A program made the position numbers and the translations under genes. From Thalassolituus oleivorans MIL-1 (GTDB taxonomy: Bacteria > Pseudomonadota > Gammaproteobacteria > Pseudomonadales > Oceanobacteraceae), in NCBI RefSeq assembly GCF_000355675.1, contig NC_020888.1:1461001-1525000 (forward strand): a stretch of DNA of 64,000 nucleotides. Reading direction: 5' to 3'. Below the pieces are notes generated by a model. The model saw only the letters and a list, made by a program, of their open reading frames with translations, was not told the origin of the DNA and did not search any database. Below, piece by piece: positions 18,910-37,352 of the stretch (the stretch's first letter is position 1; each line of letters opens with the position of its first letter).

Positions 18910-20391
18910 TTATTTGAAAACAGGCAAGCTAGTGTTGGTTCCAAAATCCCAGGGGGCAATAGAGGGCGTGTTGACGTCGTTGTCTTCGTCAATCGCATCC
19001 CAACCCTCATACAGGGTTCCGGTGTTAATGCACGTTGTATCGTTTGCGGCGGTAGGACATTGTAATTCTTCTAATGTGACGCCTAGCACGCCTGGTCGGT
19101 TCCCATCACTATGGATGCTGTGTGACAAGCCAGAAATATCGGTTGCCCAATAGCTAGTGGTGATGGTGGCCGAGTTTTGCAGTTTGCCTACTAGGCCGCC
19201 AAGAAATATATTGGTGTTTGCTGTCACTGAATTCATTGCGTAACTAGTGCTTAGATCGGAATTATCGATTAACCCGATTAAGCCTCCAACTTGGTTTTCA
19301 CTACCGGTTACGGCACCCGTACTGAAGCTACTTTTGACCGTGCTGGAGCTGGATGCCGCACCGATTAAGCCCCCAACATTACTTCTGCCGTTGACTGCGC
19401 CGGTTGCATAGCAGGTATTAAGGTGTGAGTTGGCGATATTTCCTGCGAGTCCGCCGATCGAATTATTCTTTCCGGTGACATTGCCGGTCGAATAGCTTGA
19501 ACTGAGTTTCGAGCCATCAATTAAACGTCCCACTAAACTGCCGACGCTGGTTTCTCCTGTTATTGTCATTACGGCACCACCGAGACCAATATTTTTTAAC
19601 GTACCTGCGGAGACGACTCCAAATAGTCCAATGTTTTTGCCGCTGGTTGCATCATCGGCTGAAAGACGGTTGATGAATAGGTTTCGAATTTCAAACCCAT
19701 TGCCGTTAAATTGGGCGGTAAATGGGGTTGTGTTATCGCCAATGGGTAACCAACCATTGTTTTCGCCATCTGTATCGTAATCGAAGAAAGGAGCGTCGTT
19801 AGAATCTATAACGCCATCACTATTGATGTCGAAATCCAAATTTTGTGTCAATTCATAGCCAATACAGCCGGTATCTATGAAGCAGCCAAGAGTACTGCTT
19901 TCAATGCCGTCACCTAATGCGCTGCCATCGAGGTGATGACGGATGAAATCTAGCTGTTCTAGGCTGCTGATTTCAATGAGCCCATTATTGTTGTCGTCAA
20001 TATCGTCTGTATCGAGCACGAGGTCGTTATCATCGTCTTCATCGGCGTTATTGCCAATGCCATCGCCATCGGTGTCGACGCTCTCTAAGGTATCAAGTGG
20101 GAAGGCATCGTTAGTGTCGGCAATCCCATCGTTGTCATCATCGCTGTCGGAGTTATTGCCAATGCCATCGCCATCGGTGTCGATGCTCTCTGCGGCATCA
20201 AGCGGGAAGGCGTCGTCGGCGTCAGGAATACCATCACCATCAGCATCAATCACACTTGGCGCTTCAGTTACTGGATCATTGACAATCGGTGCTGTATTGC
20301 TGCTACCTCCACTTCCGCCTCCGCAAGCGGTTAAAGTGGCAAATAATATGGTGATAGAGCAGCATTTTATTGGGGCAATTAGATTCTTCAC
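18910..20391 (-). CDS. lipoprotein with thrombospondin type-3 calcium repeats and GLUG repeats
   Basis: 493 residues, predicted cell-surface lipoprotein. Signal peptide ends in LTACGGGSGG. Residues about 45-135 are thrombospondin type-3-like Ca2+ repeats (DADGDGIPDADDAFPLD, DTDGDGIGNNSDSDDDNDG, repeated). A middle part (about 135-240) has further D/N-rich calcium sites, and residues about 240-420 hold tandem GLUG motifs (IGGLAGNI, VGGLIGAA, VGGLIGLI, LGGLVGKL) with interleaved 'S..Y.TG.V.G' strands, a beta-helix seen in adhesins and surface proteins. GTG start with CGGAG seven bases upstream. Its upstream region carries a putative ECF promoter identical in layout to that of the sigma gene 3.3 kb away, so it is a probable regulon member. 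Adhesion is a likely but unproven role. Confidence 0.8.
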   Translation of the reverse strand: MKNLIAPIKCCSITILFATLTACGGGSGGSSNTAPIVNDPVTEAPSVIDADGDGIPDADDAFPLDAAESIDTDGDGIGNNSDSDDDNDGIADTNDAFPLDTLESVDTDGDGIGNNADEDDDNDLVLDTDDIDDNNNGLIEISSLEQLDFIRHHLDGSALGDGIESSTLGCFIDTGCIGYELTQNLDFDINSDGVIDSNDAPFFDYDTDGENNGWLPIGDNTTPFTAQFNGNGFEIRNLFINRLSADDATSGKNIGLFGVVSAGTLKNIGLGGAVMTITGETSVGSLVGRLIDGSKLSSSYSTGNVTGKNNSIGGLAGNIANSHLNTCYATGAVNGRSNVGGLIGAASSSSTVKSSFSTGAVTGSENQVGGLIGLIDNSDLSTSYAMNSVTANTNIFLGGLVGKLQNSATITTSYWATDISGLSHSIHSDGNRPGVLGVTLEELQCPTAANDTTCINTGTLYEGWDAIDEDNDVNTPSIAPWDFGTNTSLPVFK

Positions 20392-20428: not shown

Positions 20429-20454
20429 TATACGGAGCGATATTCGATAAAGTT
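20429..20454 (-). promoter_or_regulatory. putative ECF-sigma promoter of the lipoprotein gene
   Basis: Read on the minus strand: AAC, 17 bases, CGTATA. This is the same -35 core, spacer length and six-base -10 as the element in front of the ECF sigma gene at 23743-23768. Confidence 0.6.
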
Positions 20455-20517
20455 TCAAAATAGAATGAAGATGTTTACAACGCGCACATGATGGCGTGAA
20501 TGGAGGCAGATAAGGGC

Positions 20518-21780
20518 CTACAGGTTGTGTGTAAACATTAAAAATACTCTCTGTTCATGTTCAAAACCGTCAGCAGTGGCGGTGAAATCAGCAAAGCGAA
20601 GTAGGACACTATTTATTGTGTTAATTTTATAGCCGACGTCGATATCGAATTCCTTTCCAATACGTGAGTTGTCATCATCTGTATTAAATAGGTGATAGCG
20701 AGCATCTATTTTTATCGGGCTCTTACGCCAGATGTACTGTAGAGAGTAGTCACGCAGACCTGAGTTTGGGGTCAGTAAAAACTTGTCAGCCCAACCATTG
20801 TGATCGTGTAACGATGCTAGTGGGGTAACAAAGCTAACTCCATTTTTTTCACCTAGGCGCTGAACGTTGAGTGTTATTTCATGATGATCAAAGCCAATGC
20901 CGCCACCGATATCATAAAATTGAAGCAGGGCGTCATTATGGATGTCTGTGCGTTCTTGTAATGCTAATTCAGCGTGCGCTAATGTCCTTAGAGCGTTCCA
21001 GCGTCCTTTGTACTCATAGCGTAGGCCGAGTGTTTGATTGGAAAGCGCCTTGGCGTCTTTGATTTCCATATCAAAGTAGTAGGCATCGATTTGGGATAAA
21101 TCCCACTCTTTAAAATGGGCAAATACAAGGTGGGTATTGTGATCATGATCGCCAAGGAATTGGGGCGGGCGTATGCCATTGTTAGCGGCGTAGTTACTAT
21201 CCGTAGGACTGAGTTTTTTACCCGCATCTTGGCCGTTAATACGGTTTGCATTATCGACATAGCGATACATCACGTTGGAGGCCGAACCAAACTCAAGTTT
21301 AAAACCAGCGGTGTCTAATGTTTGTTCGTTTTGCCAGAAACTATTAGTGCCGACAAAACGTTGGTTACCTAGATTGAGAGCTTCTCGACCGAGTGTGAGC
21401 TGCAAAGTGTTCGTTGGGGAGTAACTCAACAAGGCTTGATTTAGATCCGTCCCCGCCACATCAGGAATCACAGGATGGCCATTAAAATGCTCGCCATTAC
21501 TGAATTCGTCTTGCCAGCCTAAGGCGACGCTATCAAGTTCAAATAAGGTTGAGAACTGTTGCGACCACTCACTGGTTGCTCGCAAACGGATTAACAGAGA
21601 TGCGGCGCGGGCATTTTCTTCGGCATCGACATGGGCTAGGCGCGCGCGGGTGCCCAGTTCAAATGTGTGGTTTTCTAGCGTGTATTCTAGGGCGACAACG
21701 GGCTGTGAGGTTGCGGCGATAACGGCTAAAAGAGTTATTAAAATCGTCGAAAAAAATATCGATTTACCAATCTTCGGCAT
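20518..21780 (-). CDS. alginate-export-type outer-membrane beta-barrel protein
   Basis: 420 residues in the preferred form. Signal peptide MPKIGKSIFFSTILITLLAV...PVVA, then a barrel of the alginate-export family: YTLENHTFELGTRARLAHVDAEENARAA, LGREALNLGNQRFVGTNSFWQNEQTLDTAGF, ending in an aromatic-rich strand (RVFLMFTHNL) typical of outer-membrane proteins. I start it at ATG 21780; in-frame ATGs further upstream would add residues read from the overlapping leucine-rich-repeat gene. The start overlaps that gene by 17 bp, so translation is likely coupled. Relatives in other gammaproteobacteria are general porins, so the substrate is not necessarily alginate. Confidence 0.78.
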   Translation of the reverse strand: MPKIGKSIFFSTILITLLAVIAATSQPVVALEYTLENHTFELGTRARLAHVDAEENARAASLLIRLRATSEWSQQFSTLFELDSVALGWQDEFSNGEHFNGHPVIPDVAGTDLNQALLSYSPTNTLQLTLGREALNLGNQRFVGTNSFWQNEQTLDTAGFKLEFGSASNVMYRYVDNANRINGQDAGKKLSPTDSNYAANNGIRPPQFLGDHDHNTHLVFAHFKEWDLSQIDAYYFDMEIKDAKALSNQTLGLRYEYKGRWNALRTLAHAELALQERTDIHNDALLQFYDIGGGIGFDHHEITLNVQRLGEKNGVSFVTPLASLHDHNGWADKFLLTPNSGLRDYSLQYIWRKSPIKIDARYHLFNTDDDNSRIGKEFDIDVGYKINTINSVLLRFADFTATADGFEHEQRVFLMFTHNL

Positions 21781-22423
21781 TACCGTCATGGAGGAAAGTA
21801 ACATCATCTTTTTTATCCATTTCATCGTAGAGTGAGTCTGGCATTGGGTTTTGGCGACAGTCCATATATTGCAATTTGGGCAAACTATAAATATCAATGG
21901 CAGCGAGTTTATTATTGAAAATATAAACCTTTTCTAGTTGCGACATATTTGAGTAGGTAAAGTGTTCAATTTTATTATTGTTGGTTTTGAGCGTTTGAAG
22001 TTTTACTAAATTCGATAGTGTTAGTGTGTCTAATTGGTTATCGAACAGGTAAAGCTCACTGAGATTAGGCAAATCGGTAAGGTTGAATTGACTTAAATTA
22101 TTACGGGCCAAATTCAAGGTTTTTAGTTGTTTAAGTAATGTCAGATCAACATCCAGTTGTTCAAGCTTATTGTTGTATAGCGAGAGTGATTGCAGCTGGG
22201 TAAATTGCTCTAAGCCAACCATAGAACGAATGTCTTTGCTGTGACATTTTATCTCAGTGACATCCTCGGGTTTGCTCCAGCCATTGTTTTCGGCAAGTGC
22301 TTGCAAGCAAGCGTGTAGTGCTCTGTCTTGCACGTCAAATGTCGCAGCATAGGCTGGATGTATCCCAGTCAATATGAAAGCCACTAGCAGGTTTAGCCCA
22401 TGACGATAGTTAATAGTGATCAT
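21764..22423 (-). CDS. periplasmic leucine-rich-repeat protein
   Basis: 219 residues. Signal peptide MITINYRHGLNLLVAFILTGIHPAYA, then an N-terminal cap with two cysteines (HACLQAL, IKCHSKD) and five to six leucine-rich repeats of about 21-23 residues (LQSLSLYNNKLEQLDVD, LKTLNLARNNLSQFNLTD, LSELYLFDNQLDTLTLSN and so on), ending in a short C-terminal cap with Cys (YMDCRQNP). It sits between the anti-sigma and barrel genes, overlapping both (4 bp and 17 bp). An extracytoplasmic LRR in an ECF operon is a plausible protein-protein sensor or barrel partner; that role is inference. Confidence 0.82.
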   Translation of the reverse strand: MITINYRHGLNLLVAFILTGIHPAYAATFDVQDRALHACLQALAENNGWSKPEDVTEIKCHSKDIRSMVGLEQFTQLQSLSLYNNKLEQLDVDLTLLKQLKTLNLARNNLSQFNLTDLPNLSELYLFDNQLDTLTLSNLVKLQTLKTNNNKIEHFTYSNMSQLEKVYIFNNKLAAIDIYSLPKLQYMDCRQNPMPDSLYDEMDKKDDVTFLHDGNAEDW

Positions 22424-23163
22424 GCGCTGTCCTTCGTGACAGCAAGGCGAATGCAGACCCCTTTGGCAATCACTATGTCGCTCGGCTCATCCAATGGCGA
22501 GCCACCTTGTTCTTCTTTGGTAATAATTAAATCGGAAGAGTCTCGAATTAAACGCAATGTTGCTTCGTCGATTTGTACTTCCTTTTGCTCGCGGTTATTA
22601 AACACCAGTAACGGTCGGATTTGTCCGTCACGACGAGATTTAGCCCAAAGTTGCAGGCTATGATCTTGCGGAGCCTGCCAATCTTCCCACTTTAACCACA
22701 GCGTTTTTCCATTGCTTGAGGTGAGGGCCGTTAAAATAGGCGCGTCATTGTTATCAACCAGTACTGCGACGTAATCGGCATTGAGGCCGATGTTCTGATT
22801 GATGGAGTTGTTGAGCAATAATCCACTCATTAGCAGTAACATGGCAAACGCAGCGCCAGTGACTATTTTCCACGGCAGCAGTTTTTCCCAGAAAGTGACT
22901 GATTTCTCTTGAGCCGTTGATTGCTCGTTGTTATTAATTCTTGCTTGGATCTTGGCGAAAGTGTCAGGGTTAGGTGCTAGAGAAGGCACGCTTTCAGGCG
23001 CGGGCATAAGGGATTGTTCCCAGTAACGCACCGCTTGCATCAAGCTGTCATCCGAGCGTAATTGTTTGGCAAAAGCTTCGCGCTCTTCTCCGCGCAGAGT
23101 ACCCAATACATATTCAAGGGCGAGGGCGTTTTTATCGTCTGCATTAATCATTATTTGATCCAC
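22420..23163 (-). CDS. RskA-like membrane anti-sigma factor
   Basis: 247 residues. N-terminal cytosolic sigma-binding part (NALALEYVLGTLRGEEREAFAKQL, the usual anti-sigma helical domain without an HxxxCxxC zinc site), one membrane segment (about 101-118, IVTGAAFAMLLLMSGLLL), and a periplasmic RskA domain with conserved LWAKSRRDGQIRPL and the C-terminal ITKEEQGGSPLDEPSDIVIAKG. It should hold the co-encoded ECF sigma factor at the membrane until a periplasmic signal frees it. It overlaps the sigma gene by 20 bp. GTG 23163 has GAAGG upstream; ATG 23151 is an alternative start. Confidence 0.9.
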   Translation of the reverse strand: MDQIMINADDKNALALEYVLGTLRGEEREAFAKQLRSDDSLMQAVRYWEQSLMPAPESVPSLAPNPDTFAKIQARINNNEQSTAQEKSVTFWEKLLPWKIVTGAAFAMLLLMSGLLLNNSINQNIGLNADYVAVLVDNNDAPILTALTSSNGKTLWLKWEDWQAPQDHSLQLWAKSRRDGQIRPLLVFNNREQKEVQIDEATLRLIRDSSDLIITKEEQGGSPLDEPSDIVIAKGVCIRLAVTKDSA

Positions 23164-23722
23164 CGTTTTCGCCTTCCATGCATACTTTTAGTTTAGCGCC
23201 TCCGCGTTTTAACCAAGTTTTGACGGTATTAATGTTGGTATCTAAGACATCGGCGAGTTCTTCGCGTGAGTAACCGTACAGGTAGGCCAGCTCAAGGCTT
23301 TGTTTGAACTTGTCGTTCATCGACTCTAAACATTTCTTTAATTGTGCATTCAAGCGAAAGCGACTGTAGATCTCTTCTTGAGTCTCTTCAGTTGGGGTGT
23401 TTAGTAGAATTTCAGTTTCCGCTTCGTGATGCGGACGATTTTGATGGCGCGCTTCGTGCCGCAGTTTATCAATGGCGCGATAACGCACAATGCTGGTCAT
23501 CCAAGTCGTTGGATTTCCTTGCGCTGGTGTATAGCTCGATGCGTTGTTCCAAATTTGTACGAAAGATTCTTGCAGTACGTCGTTACTGCTATCGGCAGAA
23601 CCAAGGATACGAAAGGCCACGCCGTTAAGATAAGCAGCGGCAGCCTGATATAAGGCTTCTAGCGCTTTTTGCTCTCGCAGCGCACACCGTGCTATTAAAT
23701 TCATTAACATTTCGTTATCCAC
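23144..23722 (-). CDS. ECF (group IV) RNA polymerase sigma factor
   Basis: 192-residue extracytoplasmic-function sigma factor. Region 2 is present (FRILGSADSSNDVLQESFVQIWNNASSY, then PTTWMTSIVRYRAIDKLR) and region 4 (ELAYLYGYSREELADVLDTNINTVKTWLKRGGAKLK). The length is normal. GTG start with AAGGA eight bases upstream. It is the first gene of a four-gene overlapping operon with the anti-sigma, LRR and barrel genes. A candidate autoregulatory promoter (AAC-N17-CGTATA) lies just upstream; the same element precedes the TSP3/GLUG lipoprotein gene. Confidence 0.93.
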   Translation of the reverse strand: MDNEMLMNLIARCALREQKALEALYQAAAAYLNGVAFRILGSADSSNDVLQESFVQIWNNASSYTPAQGNPTTWMTSIVRYRAIDKLRHEARHQNRPHHEAETEILLNTPTEETQEEIYSRFRLNAQLKKCLESMNDKFKQSLELAYLYGYSREELADVLDTNINTVKTWLKRGGAKLKVCMEGENGGSNND

Positions 23723-23742
23723 AAAGAATGTCCTTATATACC

Positions 23743-23768
23743 TATACGTAATGCGAGCGAATATGGTT
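23743..23768 (-). promoter_or_regulatory. putative autoregulated ECF promoter
   Basis: Minus strand: AAC, 17 bases, CGTATA, 21 bp before the GTG start of the sigma gene. AAC at -35 and CGT at -10 are the usual cores of ECF promoters. Confidence 0.6.
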
Positions 23769-23813
23769 GCAGTGTAATGAACAAATTTTAATCATTCTAC
23801 AAGCGATGGATAT

Positions 23814-23844
23814 AAAAAAACCGCTGAAGTAGCAGCGGTTTTTT
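23814..23844. terminator. bidirectional terminator upstream of trhO's 3' end
   Basis: Seven A, CCGCTG-AAGTAG-CAGCGG, six T. On the minus strand it ends the trhO transcript before the ECF operon. Confidence 0.85.
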
Positions 23845-23871: not shown

Positions 23872-24876
23872 TTATGCGTCGGCTTTACCATCGTGCTTAC
23901 GCTGTTGATTTTTTAGCGCTAGTTTTTCTAAACGACGTTTTTCAATAATGGCGGCCAAATCGTTACCTAAGTGATCTTCACCACGGGCTTTGGCTAGCTG
24001 CATTTGATGTTCACGCTGACGGAAACGTTCACGCTGGGCTTCATCGTATTCGTCGATGCAATGATGACAACTAACGCCTTGGACGTAATGTTCCGATTGT
24101 TTGTCGTCTTCTGTAATCGGGCGGCGGCAGGCGTGACACTGATCGAAGTGGCCTTTTTGTAAGTCGTGATCGACGGTTACGCGGTTATCAAACACAAAAC
24201 ATTCGCCTTCCCACATCGTCTCTTCTTTTGGCACTTCTTCTAAGTACTTGAGAATACCGCCTTCAAGGTGGTAAACCTCGTCGAAGCCTTGTTCTTTTAA
24301 GTAGGCTGTCGATTTTTCACAACGAATCCCCCCGGTGCAGAACATGGCGACTTTTTTGTGTTTTTGCGGATCGAGGTTTTCTTTCACGTATTGTGGGAAT
24401 TCGCGGAAGGTTTTGGTGTTTGGATCAAGGGCACCCTTGAAAGTACCGATACCAACTTCATAGTCGTTGCGAGTGTCTACCAGAATCACATCTGGGTCGG
24501 AGATCAAGGCATTCCAATCTTTTGGCTTCACATAAGTGCCAACCACACGCTTAGGATCGATACCTTCGACGCCCATCGTCACGATTTCTTTCTTCAGTTT
24601 TACTTTGGTGCGGTAAAACGGCATTTCGTCGTCGAACGATTCTTTGGTGCCCACGTCTGCAAGGCGTTCATCACGGCGTAGGTAATCAAGAAGGGCATCA
24701 ATGCCTTCACGGCTGCCGGCAACCGTGCCGTTGATTCCTTCATTCGCCAGTAGCAGCGTGCCTTTGACATCAAGACGTAACATTTCATCAAGAAGGGGTT
24801 TTTGTAACAGTTCGAAATCGTTTAATGTTACAAATTTATACATCGCACAGACGACGAATGGAGTATGTTCAGTCAT
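23872..24876 (-). CDS. trhO: tRNA uridine(34) hydroxylase, rhodanese family
   Basis: 334 residues, TrhO/YceA family: oxygen-dependent hydroxylation of U34 in tRNA, the first step to cmo5U and mo5U. N-terminal acylphosphatase-like domain ([12 protein letters not shown] ... [16 protein letters not shown]) and a central rhodanese domain with [17 protein letters not shown] and the catalytic Cys in [13 protein letters not shown]. The C-terminal region has two CxxC pairs ([17 protein letters not shown]), and the tail is rich in Arg, Lys and Gln. ATG 24876 is chosen because GAGGA precedes it; the longer frame to 24930 lacks a ribosome site. Confidence 0.93.
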
Positions 24877-25143
24877 AAGTTCCTCGCTGGCCGGAACGTA
24901 AATCCGGTGCGTTATCGGTAGTGATTTCAATGCAGAGCATTGAGTTTGCGGGCGCGATTATACAGAAGAAGAGCCGCTAGGGCAGGTTGGATATGACTAT
25001 CCGGCCAAAGTTAGCAATATTGCGACTTATTTCTGGCGTCAACTTTTTTTCCGGTGAAGATGTACTAGTGTTTATAAAGTTGCCTAACGGGCGTGTGGTT
25101 GATGTAAAACCCTGATTTTGCAGACGTTAGGCCTTGGGTTGTC

Positions 25144-35087: not shown

Positions 35088-37352
35088 ATGATTTCAGCGT
35101 TTTGTTTAGTACCGCTTAGCCGGTTGTTTAGGCCTCGTGGTCGAGGAGTAGCGGGATGCGGTGTGGCAATCACTGTGTTATTGAGCAGTGGATTGCTAGC
35201 GGGTTGCAGCGAGGAAACTTGGAATAACCCCCATTTAGCCGATGAGTTTGGCAAAAACATCATTTACTCCAGCTTTTCTGAACGTCCTAAACACCTCGAT
35301 CCAGCTCGCTCGTACAGTGCCGACGAAGGCCGATTTATCGACCAAATTTACGATGCACCTCTGCAGTACCACTATTTAAAGCGCCCCTACGAGCTAGAAC
35401 CTAATACCCTTACACATATGCCGGATATTAGCTATCTTGATGCCGATGGTAATCAAGTGAGTGCAGACGCGGAAAATGTGGCCTACAGCGAATACTTATT
35501 CGAATTAAAGCCCGGCATTCAATATCAGCCGCATCCGGCATTTGCTTTGAATAGCGCAGGTGAACCGAGTTACTTATTTGCGTCTCCAGAAGCCAGTGCG
35601 GCGTATCAGCATTTTGACGATTTTACCGAACAGGGCAGCCGCGAATTAGTTGCCGCAGATTATGTGTATCAAATTAAGCGTCTTGCCGATCCGACATTGC
35701 TGTCGCCAGTTCGTGGTCTATTAAGCGAATACATCGTAGGGATGACAGAATTTAGCGATGCAGTCACCGAAGCAAGAAAATCATTAACACAACCCAATGA
35801 CTGGCTTGATTTAGATACTCTGACGATGAGTGGTGTTGAAGTGATCGACGATTACCACTATCGCGTGCGCTTAAATGGTAAATATCCTCAGTTTAAATAT
35901 TGGTTAGCGTTTCATTTCTTTGCGCCTATGGCACGTGAGGTTGATCGTTTTTATCATCAGCCGGGTTTAGCCGATCGCAATATTGTTTTGAACTGGTATC
36001 CGGTAGGTACTGGGCCATTCATGATGACTCGCAATGATCCTAACGAAGTGATCATTTTAGAGCGCAATCCAAACTACCGTGATGATCGCTATCCCGCGGA
36101 AGGTGAGCCGAGTGACGAAGCCGCCGGTCTATTAACTGATGCCGGTGCAAAACTGCCGTTTGTAGATAAAGCCGTATACCGCCTAGAAAAAGAAGCCATT
36201 CCGTTATGGACCAAATTTTTGCAGGGCTATTACGACCGTTCTGGTATTGCTAGCGATAGCTTCGACCAAGCAATTAGCGTGGGCAGCCAAGGTATTAGTT
36301 TAAGCGATGATATGAAAGAGCGTGGTGTGACCTTAGATTTAGAGGTTGTTCCGGGCACCTATTATTTCGCCTTCAACATGCTGGACCCTATTGTTGGTAA
36401 CGTAGGCGATGCCCAGCAGCGCGAAAAAGCACGTAAGTTACGTCAGGCTATTGCGATTGCATACGACCAGAAAGAAATGATTTCTATCTTTATGAATGGT
36501 CGCGGTGAAGACGCCATGAGCCCAATTCCACCGGGGATTTTTGGTTACCAAACCGGTGAAGAAGGTATTAACCCGTATGTTTACGATTGGGTCGATGGCA
36601 GTGCCGAGCGTAAATCAATAGACGAAGCAAAACGCTTATTAGCTGAAGCTGGTTACCCTGGTGGACGCTCCGCCACAACGGGCGAACCTTTAGTTTTAAA
36701 CTTAGATACCACCGGAGGTTCTGGCGGAAGTGCTATGCAAAACTGGATGGTAAAACAGTTTAAGAAAATCGGCGTGCAACTCAATATACGTGGCACCGAC
36801 TACAATCGTTTTAAAGAAAAAATGCAAACAGGCAATGCGCAGATGTTTCAGTGGGGTTGGATGGCCGATTACCCTGATGCCGAAAACTTTTTATTCCTGC
36901 TGTACGGCGCTAACGGTCAAGTGGTTTCTGGAGGCTCGGGTGTGAACTCAACGAACTACGATAACCCGGAATACAATCGCCTGTTTGAAAAAATGAAATT
37001 AATGGAAGACTCGCCAGAGCGTATGGAAATTATTCGTCGCATGATCCGTATTATGCAGCACGATGTTCCATGGGCTTCGGCATGGCATCCGCATTCATAT
37101 GTATTAAATAATCAATGGGTGAGCAACAGTAAGCCTCACGGTATTAGTAAGTCTATTTTGAAGTATTTGAAAATTGATCCGCAGCTTCGTGGAGAAAAAC
37201 AGCACGAATGGAATCAGCCGATACTGGCGCCACTATGGCTGGTTGCTTTACTAATAGCGATTTTTGCCTTTCCTGGCTGGATTGCCTACCGACGTCGCCA
37301 GCAGCACCGTATTGCAGATGACGCTTCTTCTAGCAATGTAGGAGGGCACTAA
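35088..37352 (+). CDS. oligopeptide-type ABC transporter substrate-binding lipoprotein with C-terminal membrane anchor
   Basis: 754 residues, family 5 (DppA/OppA/YejA-like) solute-binding protein. N-terminal lipobox LLAGCSE; family motifs ERPKHLDPARSYSADEGRFIDQIYD, NWYPVGTGPFMMTRNDPNEVIILERNP, LRQAIAIAYDQKEMISIF, WGWMADYPDAENFLFLLYG. Unusually it ends with a hydrophobic segment (PLWLVALLIAIFAFPGWIAY) and a basic tail RRRQQHR, so it appears doubly anchored: a lipid at the N-terminus and a helix at the C-terminus. First gene of a four-gene transporter operon; the permease starts 2 bp after its stop. Substrate is probably peptides. Confidence 0.88.
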   Translation: MISAFCLVPLSRLFRPRGRGVAGCGVAITVLLSSGLLAGCSEETWNNPHLADEFGKNIIYSSFSERPKHLDPARSYSADEGRFIDQIYDAPLQYHYLKRPYELEPNTLTHMPDISYLDADGNQVSADAENVAYSEYLFELKPGIQYQPHPAFALNSAGEPSYLFASPEASAAYQHFDDFTEQGSRELVAADYVYQIKRLADPTLLSPVRGLLSEYIVGMTEFSDAVTEARKSLTQPNDWLDLDTLTMSGVEVIDDYHYRVRLNGKYPQFKYWLAFHFFAPMAREVDRFYHQPGLADRNIVLNWYPVGTGPFMMTRNDPNEVIILERNPNYRDDRYPAEGEPSDEAAGLLTDAGAKLPFVDKAVYRLEKEAIPLWTKFLQGYYDRSGIASDSFDQAISVGSQGISLSDDMKERGVTLDLEVVPGTYYFAFNMLDPIVGNVGDAQQREKARKLRQAIAIAYDQKEMISIFMNGRGEDAMSPIPPGIFGYQTGEEGINPYVYDWVDGSAERKSIDEAKRLLAEAGYPGGRSATTGEPLVLNLDTTGGSGGSAMQNWMVKQFKKIGVQLNIRGTDYNRFKEKMQTGNAQMFQWGWMADYPDAENFLFLLYGANGQVVSGGSGVNSTNYDNPEYNRLFEKMKLMEDSPERMEIIRRMIRIMQHDVPWASAWHPHSYVLNNQWVSNSKPHGISKSILKYLKIDPQLRGEKQHEWNQPILAPLWLVALLIAIFAFPGWIAYRRRQQHRIADDASSSNVGGH

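Follow-up and report, generated by a model that had tools for sequence, protein, structure and literature searches.

The SigK sigma factors, which are paired with RskA anti-sigma factors and have a lipoprotein target encoded nearby, are already known: the excerpts of PMC7509140 considered here describe a minimal mpt83-sigK-rskA cassette, name Mycobacterium and Yersinia enterocolitica, and report that oxidation of Cys133 and Cys183 of SigK affects RskA binding. Autoregulation from an AAC-containing -35 box (GTAAC) and a CG-containing -10 box is described for EcfF, an extracytoplasmic function (ECF) sigma factor of Bradyrhizobium japonicum (excerpts of PMC3420878), and the ECF18 factor RpoT of Pseudomonas is a further proteobacterial sigma factor whose operon includes an anti-sigma gene (excerpts of PMC3597554). 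Here, we report a related locus of Thalassolituus oleivorans MIL-1, found in a 64,000-nucleotide stretch of contig NC_020888.1 (hereafter, the window, meaning this whole stretch). An operon headed by an ECF sigma gene and, downstream of it on the same strand, a surface lipoprotein gene are preceded by promoter-like sites of one type. We are fairly confident, judging by sequence, that this SigK-like sigma factor would be autoregulated and would switch on both its own operon and the gene of the lipoprotein, a protein with GLUG and TSP3-like repeats. The features are as follows.

23820–23836, minus strand: terminator-like hairpin, between the upstream gene (23872–24930) and the sigma operon
23743–23771, minus strand: predicted sigma operon promoter; -35 TGCAAC at 23766–23771, 17-base spacer, -10 CGTATA at 23743–23748 (exact match and ortholog conservation)
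23144–23722, minus strand: SigK-like ECF sigma factor, 192 amino acids, GTG start (Pfam Sigma70_r2 8e-14, Sigma70_r4_2 2e-9)
22420–23163, minus strand: RskA-type anti-sigma factor, 247 amino acids (Pfam RskA_C E 9e-19); 20-base overlap with the sigma gene
21764–22423, minus strand: leucine-rich-repeat (LRR) protein, 219 amino acids (Pfam LRR_4 E 8e-14), with a signal-peptide-like start by eye; 4-base overlap with the anti-sigma gene
20518–21825, minus strand: porin-like protein, Alginate_exp-like (Pfam Alginate_exp E 3.5e-6); start codon uncertain, mechanical frame from 21897
20429–20457, minus strand: putative lipoprotein gene promoter; -35 TGAAAC(TTT), 17-base spacer, -10 CGTATA at 20429–20434 (exact match)
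18910–20391, minus strand: putative surface lipoprotein with Asp-rich TSP3-like and GLUG repeats, 493 amino acids (Pfam Glug E 7.6e-12); putative target

The sigma factor of the window belongs to the ECF class: it contains regions 2 and 4 within its 192 residues and matches the NCBIfam sigma70-ECF superfamily above the cut-off, the SigK subfamily being the second-best NCBIfam model, below its cut-off. Its closest solved relative is SigK (4nqw_A, E 9.3e-17), and Cys131 and Cys181 align with the two SigK cysteines, Cys133 and Cys183; both are present in 29 of the 29 sigma loci that form our homolog set. The anti-sigma gene that overlaps the sigma gene is of the RskA type (RskA_C 9e-19). By sequence the factor is SigK-like, with an RskA-type anti-sigma factor, and would fall in the ECF18/19 neighbourhood. 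The ECF26 and ROS-type groups were also weighed, by description, as the closest kind and were dropped, the anti-sigma factor being RskA-type.

The locus shares with the mpt83-sigK-rskA cassette, as excerpted, a two-cysteine SigK-like sigma factor, an adjacent RskA-type anti-sigma factor, and a target (here a putative one) that is a lipoprotein encoded close to the sigma gene. It differs in that the lipoprotein is a GLUG/TSP3 protein, not MPT83, and in that its operon also encodes an LRR protein and a porin. MPT83 is a fasciclin-type lipoprotein, and no fasciclin domain was found among the Pfam matches of the five window proteins. The -35 box of SigK is of the CCATCC type, whereas that of the window reads GCAAC(TTT): in the clade of 17 homologs defined below, CATC[CT]-N14-18-CGTAT occurs within 260 nt upstream in none (0/17) and the GCAAC type in 10. 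EcfF, as excerpted, differs in its spacer (14–15), anti-sigma factor (OsrA), and targets, and RpoT in its neighbours; the latter comparison is by description, the passages of PMC3597554 holding no promoter motif. Among the literature matches listed (text only, with few subscription papers), neither an GCAACTTT/CGTA or TGCAACTTT/CGTA motif, nor an LRR-porin-RskA operon, nor a CAAC/CATC pair was found. Motifs derived from sigma upstream regions of 29 ECF groups are displayed in figures of PMC3817407, of which excerpts were considered, and the TGCAACTTT/CGTA motif may be among them.

Two AAC-N17-CGTATA elements on one strand, 3.3 kb apart, with unrelated spacer sequences had been pointed out in an earlier note on this DNA, and both are where they were placed, with identical -10 hexamers and spacer length of 17. 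Read directly on the minus strand, the lipoprotein-side site (20429–20454) is AACTTTATCGAATATCGCTCCGTATA and the sigma-side site (23743–23768) is AACCATATTCGCTCGCATTACGTATA; the match between them extends three bases further 5', giving TG[C/A]AAC. Twenty bases separate the sigma site from its GTG start (23722), which AAGGA precedes, and 37 bases separate the lipoprotein site from a GTG start (20391), which GGAG precedes. The bare AAC-N17-CGTATA is matched exactly three times in the window, where 0.49 matches would be expected, and 1 of 100 shuffles reached three; the third (36785–36810) lies within an opposite-strand frame of at least 689 amino acids. The pattern TG[CA]AAC-N16-18-CGTA occurs at two places only in the 64 kb, i.e., the sigma operon site and the lipoprotein site. 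In the latter AAC is followed by TTT (GAAACTTT); the sigma site of the window has AACCAT.

Comparison of upstream regions in related species, one of the checks proposed earlier, bore out the sigma-side site. Sigma homologs were collected from 44 family genomes (E 1e-25), 390 order genomes (E 1e-33), a genome collection, and 369 class genomes (E 1e-40), yielding the 29 loci, the window's own included. Seventeen of them, i.e., the window sigma and homologs 40.6–48% identical to it, fall together on one side of a branch supported at 100/97. G[CA]A[AC]C-N16-18-CGTA lies no more than 260 nt upstream of the projected start in 10 of these 17 sigma genes, the window included, and in 0 of the 12 others, which are more distant SigK-like factors. 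The chance of a site per clade locus is 0 to 0.015, summing to about 0.14; as the pattern was derived from the window, the independent count is 9/16. An eleventh clade member (L085) has TGCAACTTT...CGTA at 270–300 nt upstream of the sigma gene, outside the 260-nt test. The consensus of the clade sigma sites is TGCAACTTT...CGTA, which the lipoprotein site (GAAACTTT) fits, and AACTTT is present in eight of nine aligned ortholog sigma sites as well as in the lipoprotein site. These observations make autoregulation of the sigma factor very likely. The wider ortholog search in the class added one further genome of 369 at E 1e-40, with no site within 260 nt.

Overlapping genes make up the operon, in the order sigma, RskA-type anti-sigma, LRR protein, and Alginate_exp-like porin. 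Homologs of both the LRR protein (37–48% identity) and the porin (29–37%) were found at 7 of the 9 larger sigma loci searched (L081, L082, L084–L088); L083 and L089 have neither, and the short locus L180 has a partial porin match. L086–L088 carry the LRR gene on the opposite strand, L088 at a distance of about 7 kb, and no convincing site was seen by eye upstream of this separate gene in the three loci. Counting that of L085, the site precedes the sigma gene in all seven LRR-porin loci and in the window. The neighbourhoods of nine sigma genes contain 13 matches to TG[CA]A[AC]C-N16-18-CGTA against 3.55 expected (1 for the reversed pattern): 7 sigma promoters, 4 sites before neighbouring genes (window, L082, L083, L087), and 2 in coding frames. 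In L087, from an Alteromonadaceae genome, a divergent GCAACTTT...CGTA pair lies between the sigma gene and the gene of an RTX-type calcium-binding protein, at about 9849–9941.

The earlier note had also suggested scanning the genome with AAC-N17-CGTATA to find the other members of the regulon. In bare form the pattern failed: the whole 3.92-Mb genome holds 28 matches against 31 for the reversed-pattern control, which is chance frequency, and it was rejected for this use. Five of the 28 (L001, L008, L009, L011, L023) lie in no frame of at least 60 amino acids, each with a downstream frame (at 131 bases for L023); L025 is in a 74-amino-acid frame only. A GNAAC version with one mismatch was rejected too, its 171 matches falling below the 255 of its control. 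Three near-identical 28-base matches at G000:C1:1264701, 1264901, and 1265078 (G000 being the window's genome), 180–200 bases apart, suggest a tandem repeat.

The extended pattern does separate from its controls when promoter placement is considered. In the window's genome TG[CA]AAC-N16-18-CGTATA has six matches (control three), all with N17; two are in coding frames and four are promoter-placed, before the sigma operon, the GLUG/TSP3 lipoprotein gene, the gene of a Peptidase_S8 (subtilase) lipoprotein (C1:54446), and that of a Peptidase_C58 protein (C1:1985827). In ten genomes, i.e., this one and nine relatives, 30 of 34 matches to GCAACTTT-N13-15-CGTA were classified, and 15/30 are promoter-placed versus 1/30 (of 42) for the reversed pattern (p 6e-5); without the seven sigma promoters, the counts are 10/23 versus 1/39 (p 9e-5). 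The reversed pattern contains ATG, which may bias it towards coding regions, and a control with a shuffled -35 box and no ATG gave 0/9. With TG[CA]AAC-N16-18-CGTATA, 12 of 30 matches examined (of 35) are promoter-placed (p 0.001 versus the same reversed control). Placement before genes, not match count, is what separates signal from noise. The observation of two sites thereby leads to a testable regulon with a usable motif, in a little-studied gammaproteobacterial branch of SigK/RskA systems.

A CxxCH lipoprotein family is a recurrent target candidate, with sites in G420 (L110), G422 (site C11:25494, gene match from 25645), and G131, where TGCACCC...CGTA has the ACC variant common to that genome's sigma promoter. 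Peptidase_S8 proteins have a site in the window's genome and in G422, and ribA has one in G420 (by Pfam) and G422 (by likeness to the G420 protein). Site-bearing genes near the sigma gene encode an RTX-type protein (G421), a TPR-like protein (G212), and the CxxCH lipoprotein (G131). Weaker sites precede a lipoprotein gene of G028 (about 360 nt away) and the gene of an RTX-type protein of G419 (AGTATA).

Several points weigh against the proposed shared regulation. The AAC core, spacer of 17, and CGTA of the test pattern come from the sites of the earlier note, and the A/C position, G[CA], the 16–18 spacer range, and the shortening of the -10 box to CGTA were loosened after the upstream regions had been read; without the ACC variant of G131 the clade count is 9/17. 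Six of the 17 clade members lack a site within 260 nt, regions farther upstream being covered only in the larger loci. In the ten genomes the numbers of matches stay below the reversed controls (34 versus 42 for GCAACTTT-N13-15-CGTA, above control in 4/10 genomes; 35 versus 40 for TG[CA]AAC-N16-18-CGTATA). Among the 13 neighbourhood sites, 7 are the sigma promoters themselves, and 2 of the other 6 are in coding frames. The CxxCH lipoprotein has five matches in 4/11 genomes, the window's genome having none; of the four matches examined for a site (all but G419 C12), that of G419 C1 has none upstream. No GLUG/TSP3 lipoprotein homolog was found at nine other sigma loci (L081–L089), which confines the footprint to the sigma promoter. 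The sites, their placement, their conservation upstream of sigma orthologs, and the protein families are direct observations; the promoters are predicted from sequence, and recognition by this sigma factor, its release by an envelope signal, and co-expression are inferred.

These points bear mainly on the lipoprotein. Its site might be a chance resemblance, with autoregulation confined to the sigma operon, as the chance-level genome count of the bare pattern, site numbers not above controls, and the lack of a lipoprotein homolog at the other sigma loci would allow. We regard this as unlikely: both extended sites of the 64 kb stand right before genes, that of the lipoprotein has the TTT, a feature the earlier note had not used, and G131 and G421 also have such a site at a gene near or adjoining the sigma gene. 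Still less probable is a reading in which another ECF factor, e.g., the second SigK-like sigma factor of this genome (C1:3585322) or one of the sigma-E type, reads the lipoprotein promoter. That second factor has the same CGTATA upstream, but preceded by CATCC-N16, and its helix type shows a GCAAC-type site in 0/12 cases; sigma-E, in turn, reads GGAACTT with a -10 box unlike CGTA. Finally, the lipoprotein gene might mainly be read through from the sigma operon, the second promoter being minor, for the 126-base gap after the porin gene contains no minus-strand terminator-like hairpin in the hairpin scan. Read-through as the main route is rather improbable, as the gap holds the promoter-like site and the lipoprotein gene has its own ribosome site, and it is in any case compatible with co-regulation. 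The proposal of an autoregulated sigma factor with a target nearby is strengthened on the sigma side by the 9/16 other clade members and one more at 270–300 nt; the lipoprotein link, helped by the TTT, is likely but indirect.

In the mechanism that we propose, the SigK-like sigma factor would be held by its RskA-type anti-sigma factor and released by an envelope signal, possibly a redox signal acting through the conserved cysteine pair. Once released, it would recognize TG[CA]AAC(TTT)...CGTATA and switch on its own operon, i.e., sigma, RskA, LRR protein, and porin, the last two of which suggest an outer-membrane role. The GLUG/TSP3 lipoprotein would be co-expressed from the other site, which lies 3.3 kb downstream. 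In other parts of the genome the same site precedes the genes of the subtilase lipoprotein and the C58-type peptidase, and the factor would probably raise a set of surface or secreted proteins, the GLUG/TSP3 lipoprotein among them.

The same genome encodes a second SigK-like sigma factor with an anti-sigma gene (G000:C1:3585322–3585873, L037), preceded by CATCC-N16-CGTATA. This module, with its likes in the genus, shares with that of the window the sigma and anti-sigma families and the -10 CGTATA, and differs in the -35 box and spacer (CATCC-N16 versus GCAAC-N17) and in the recognition helix (Gly versus Asn). In region 4.2, NT[VI]K[ST]W is present in 17/17 clade members (Asn165 in the window), and Gly occupies the Asn position in 12/12 others; a plain Asn-or-Gly rule does not hold, since this position is Ser in the SigK structure 4nqw. 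Among the 12 Gly-type genes, four (L035, L036, L037, L077; each CATCC-N16) have CATC[CT]-N14-18-CGTAT in the 260 nt upstream, as against 0/17 of the Asn type, the L035 site having been scored genic by the script owing to an overlapping frame, and GCAAC-type sites precede none (0/12) of the Gly type. In the 14 loci that bear one of the two sites, helix residue and -35 box go together without exception (Fisher p 0.001). Since the tree has in essence a single divide, their pairing is a correlation on one branch.

CATCC-N15-17-CGTATA has 14 matches versus 12 reversed in seven genomes of the genus, with three promoter-placed, before the second sigma gene and one gene each of G027 and G028. The latter two, which we take to be DUF4331-like, have a Gly-type sigma gene on the same contig at a distance of 4 to 5 kb, and their ASSHREAPN protein starts resemble that of the gene adjoining the G021 sigma gene. 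It is conceivable, although we hold it only tentatively, that two SigK-type factors in one cell are separated mainly by the -35 box, Asn165 reading CAAC and Gly reading CATC, each followed at equal distance by CGTATA, and that the Asn type, mostly with LRR protein and porin, drives a different neighbouring surface-protein gene in each lineage. One genome would then contain two related sigma factors, a natural pair whose -35 preferences seem to have diverged in step with one recognition-helix position, a CAAC/CATC pair that bears on how ECF sigma factors avoid cross-talk.

The hairpin upstream of the sigma operon is weak evidence for a terminator, as the scan of the region gave 7 terminator-like hairpins against 6.8 expected from shuffles. 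Another putative lipoprotein gene lies on the same strand at window positions 14260–15648 (462 amino acids, lipobox-like FFGGCGG by eye), with no TG[CA]AAC-N16-18-CGTA site upstream. The GLUG/TSP3 lipoprotein itself has a lipobox-like LTACGGG by eye and matches the NCBIfam TSP3-type MtsC model at E 4e-8, below its cut-off. Matches to its GLUG protein were found in 49 of the 390 order genomes, its own included, the strongest outside match being 52% identical. Four similar TSP3/GLUG lipoprotein genes stand in tandem in another species (L218, G177:C1:974500–984500), and no site precedes the genes in the two GLUG stretches checked, i.e., these four and one paralog of the window's genome. Paralogs in this genome are at G000:C1:442726, 450492, and 1797837, of which two lie within open frames some 2400 amino acids long.

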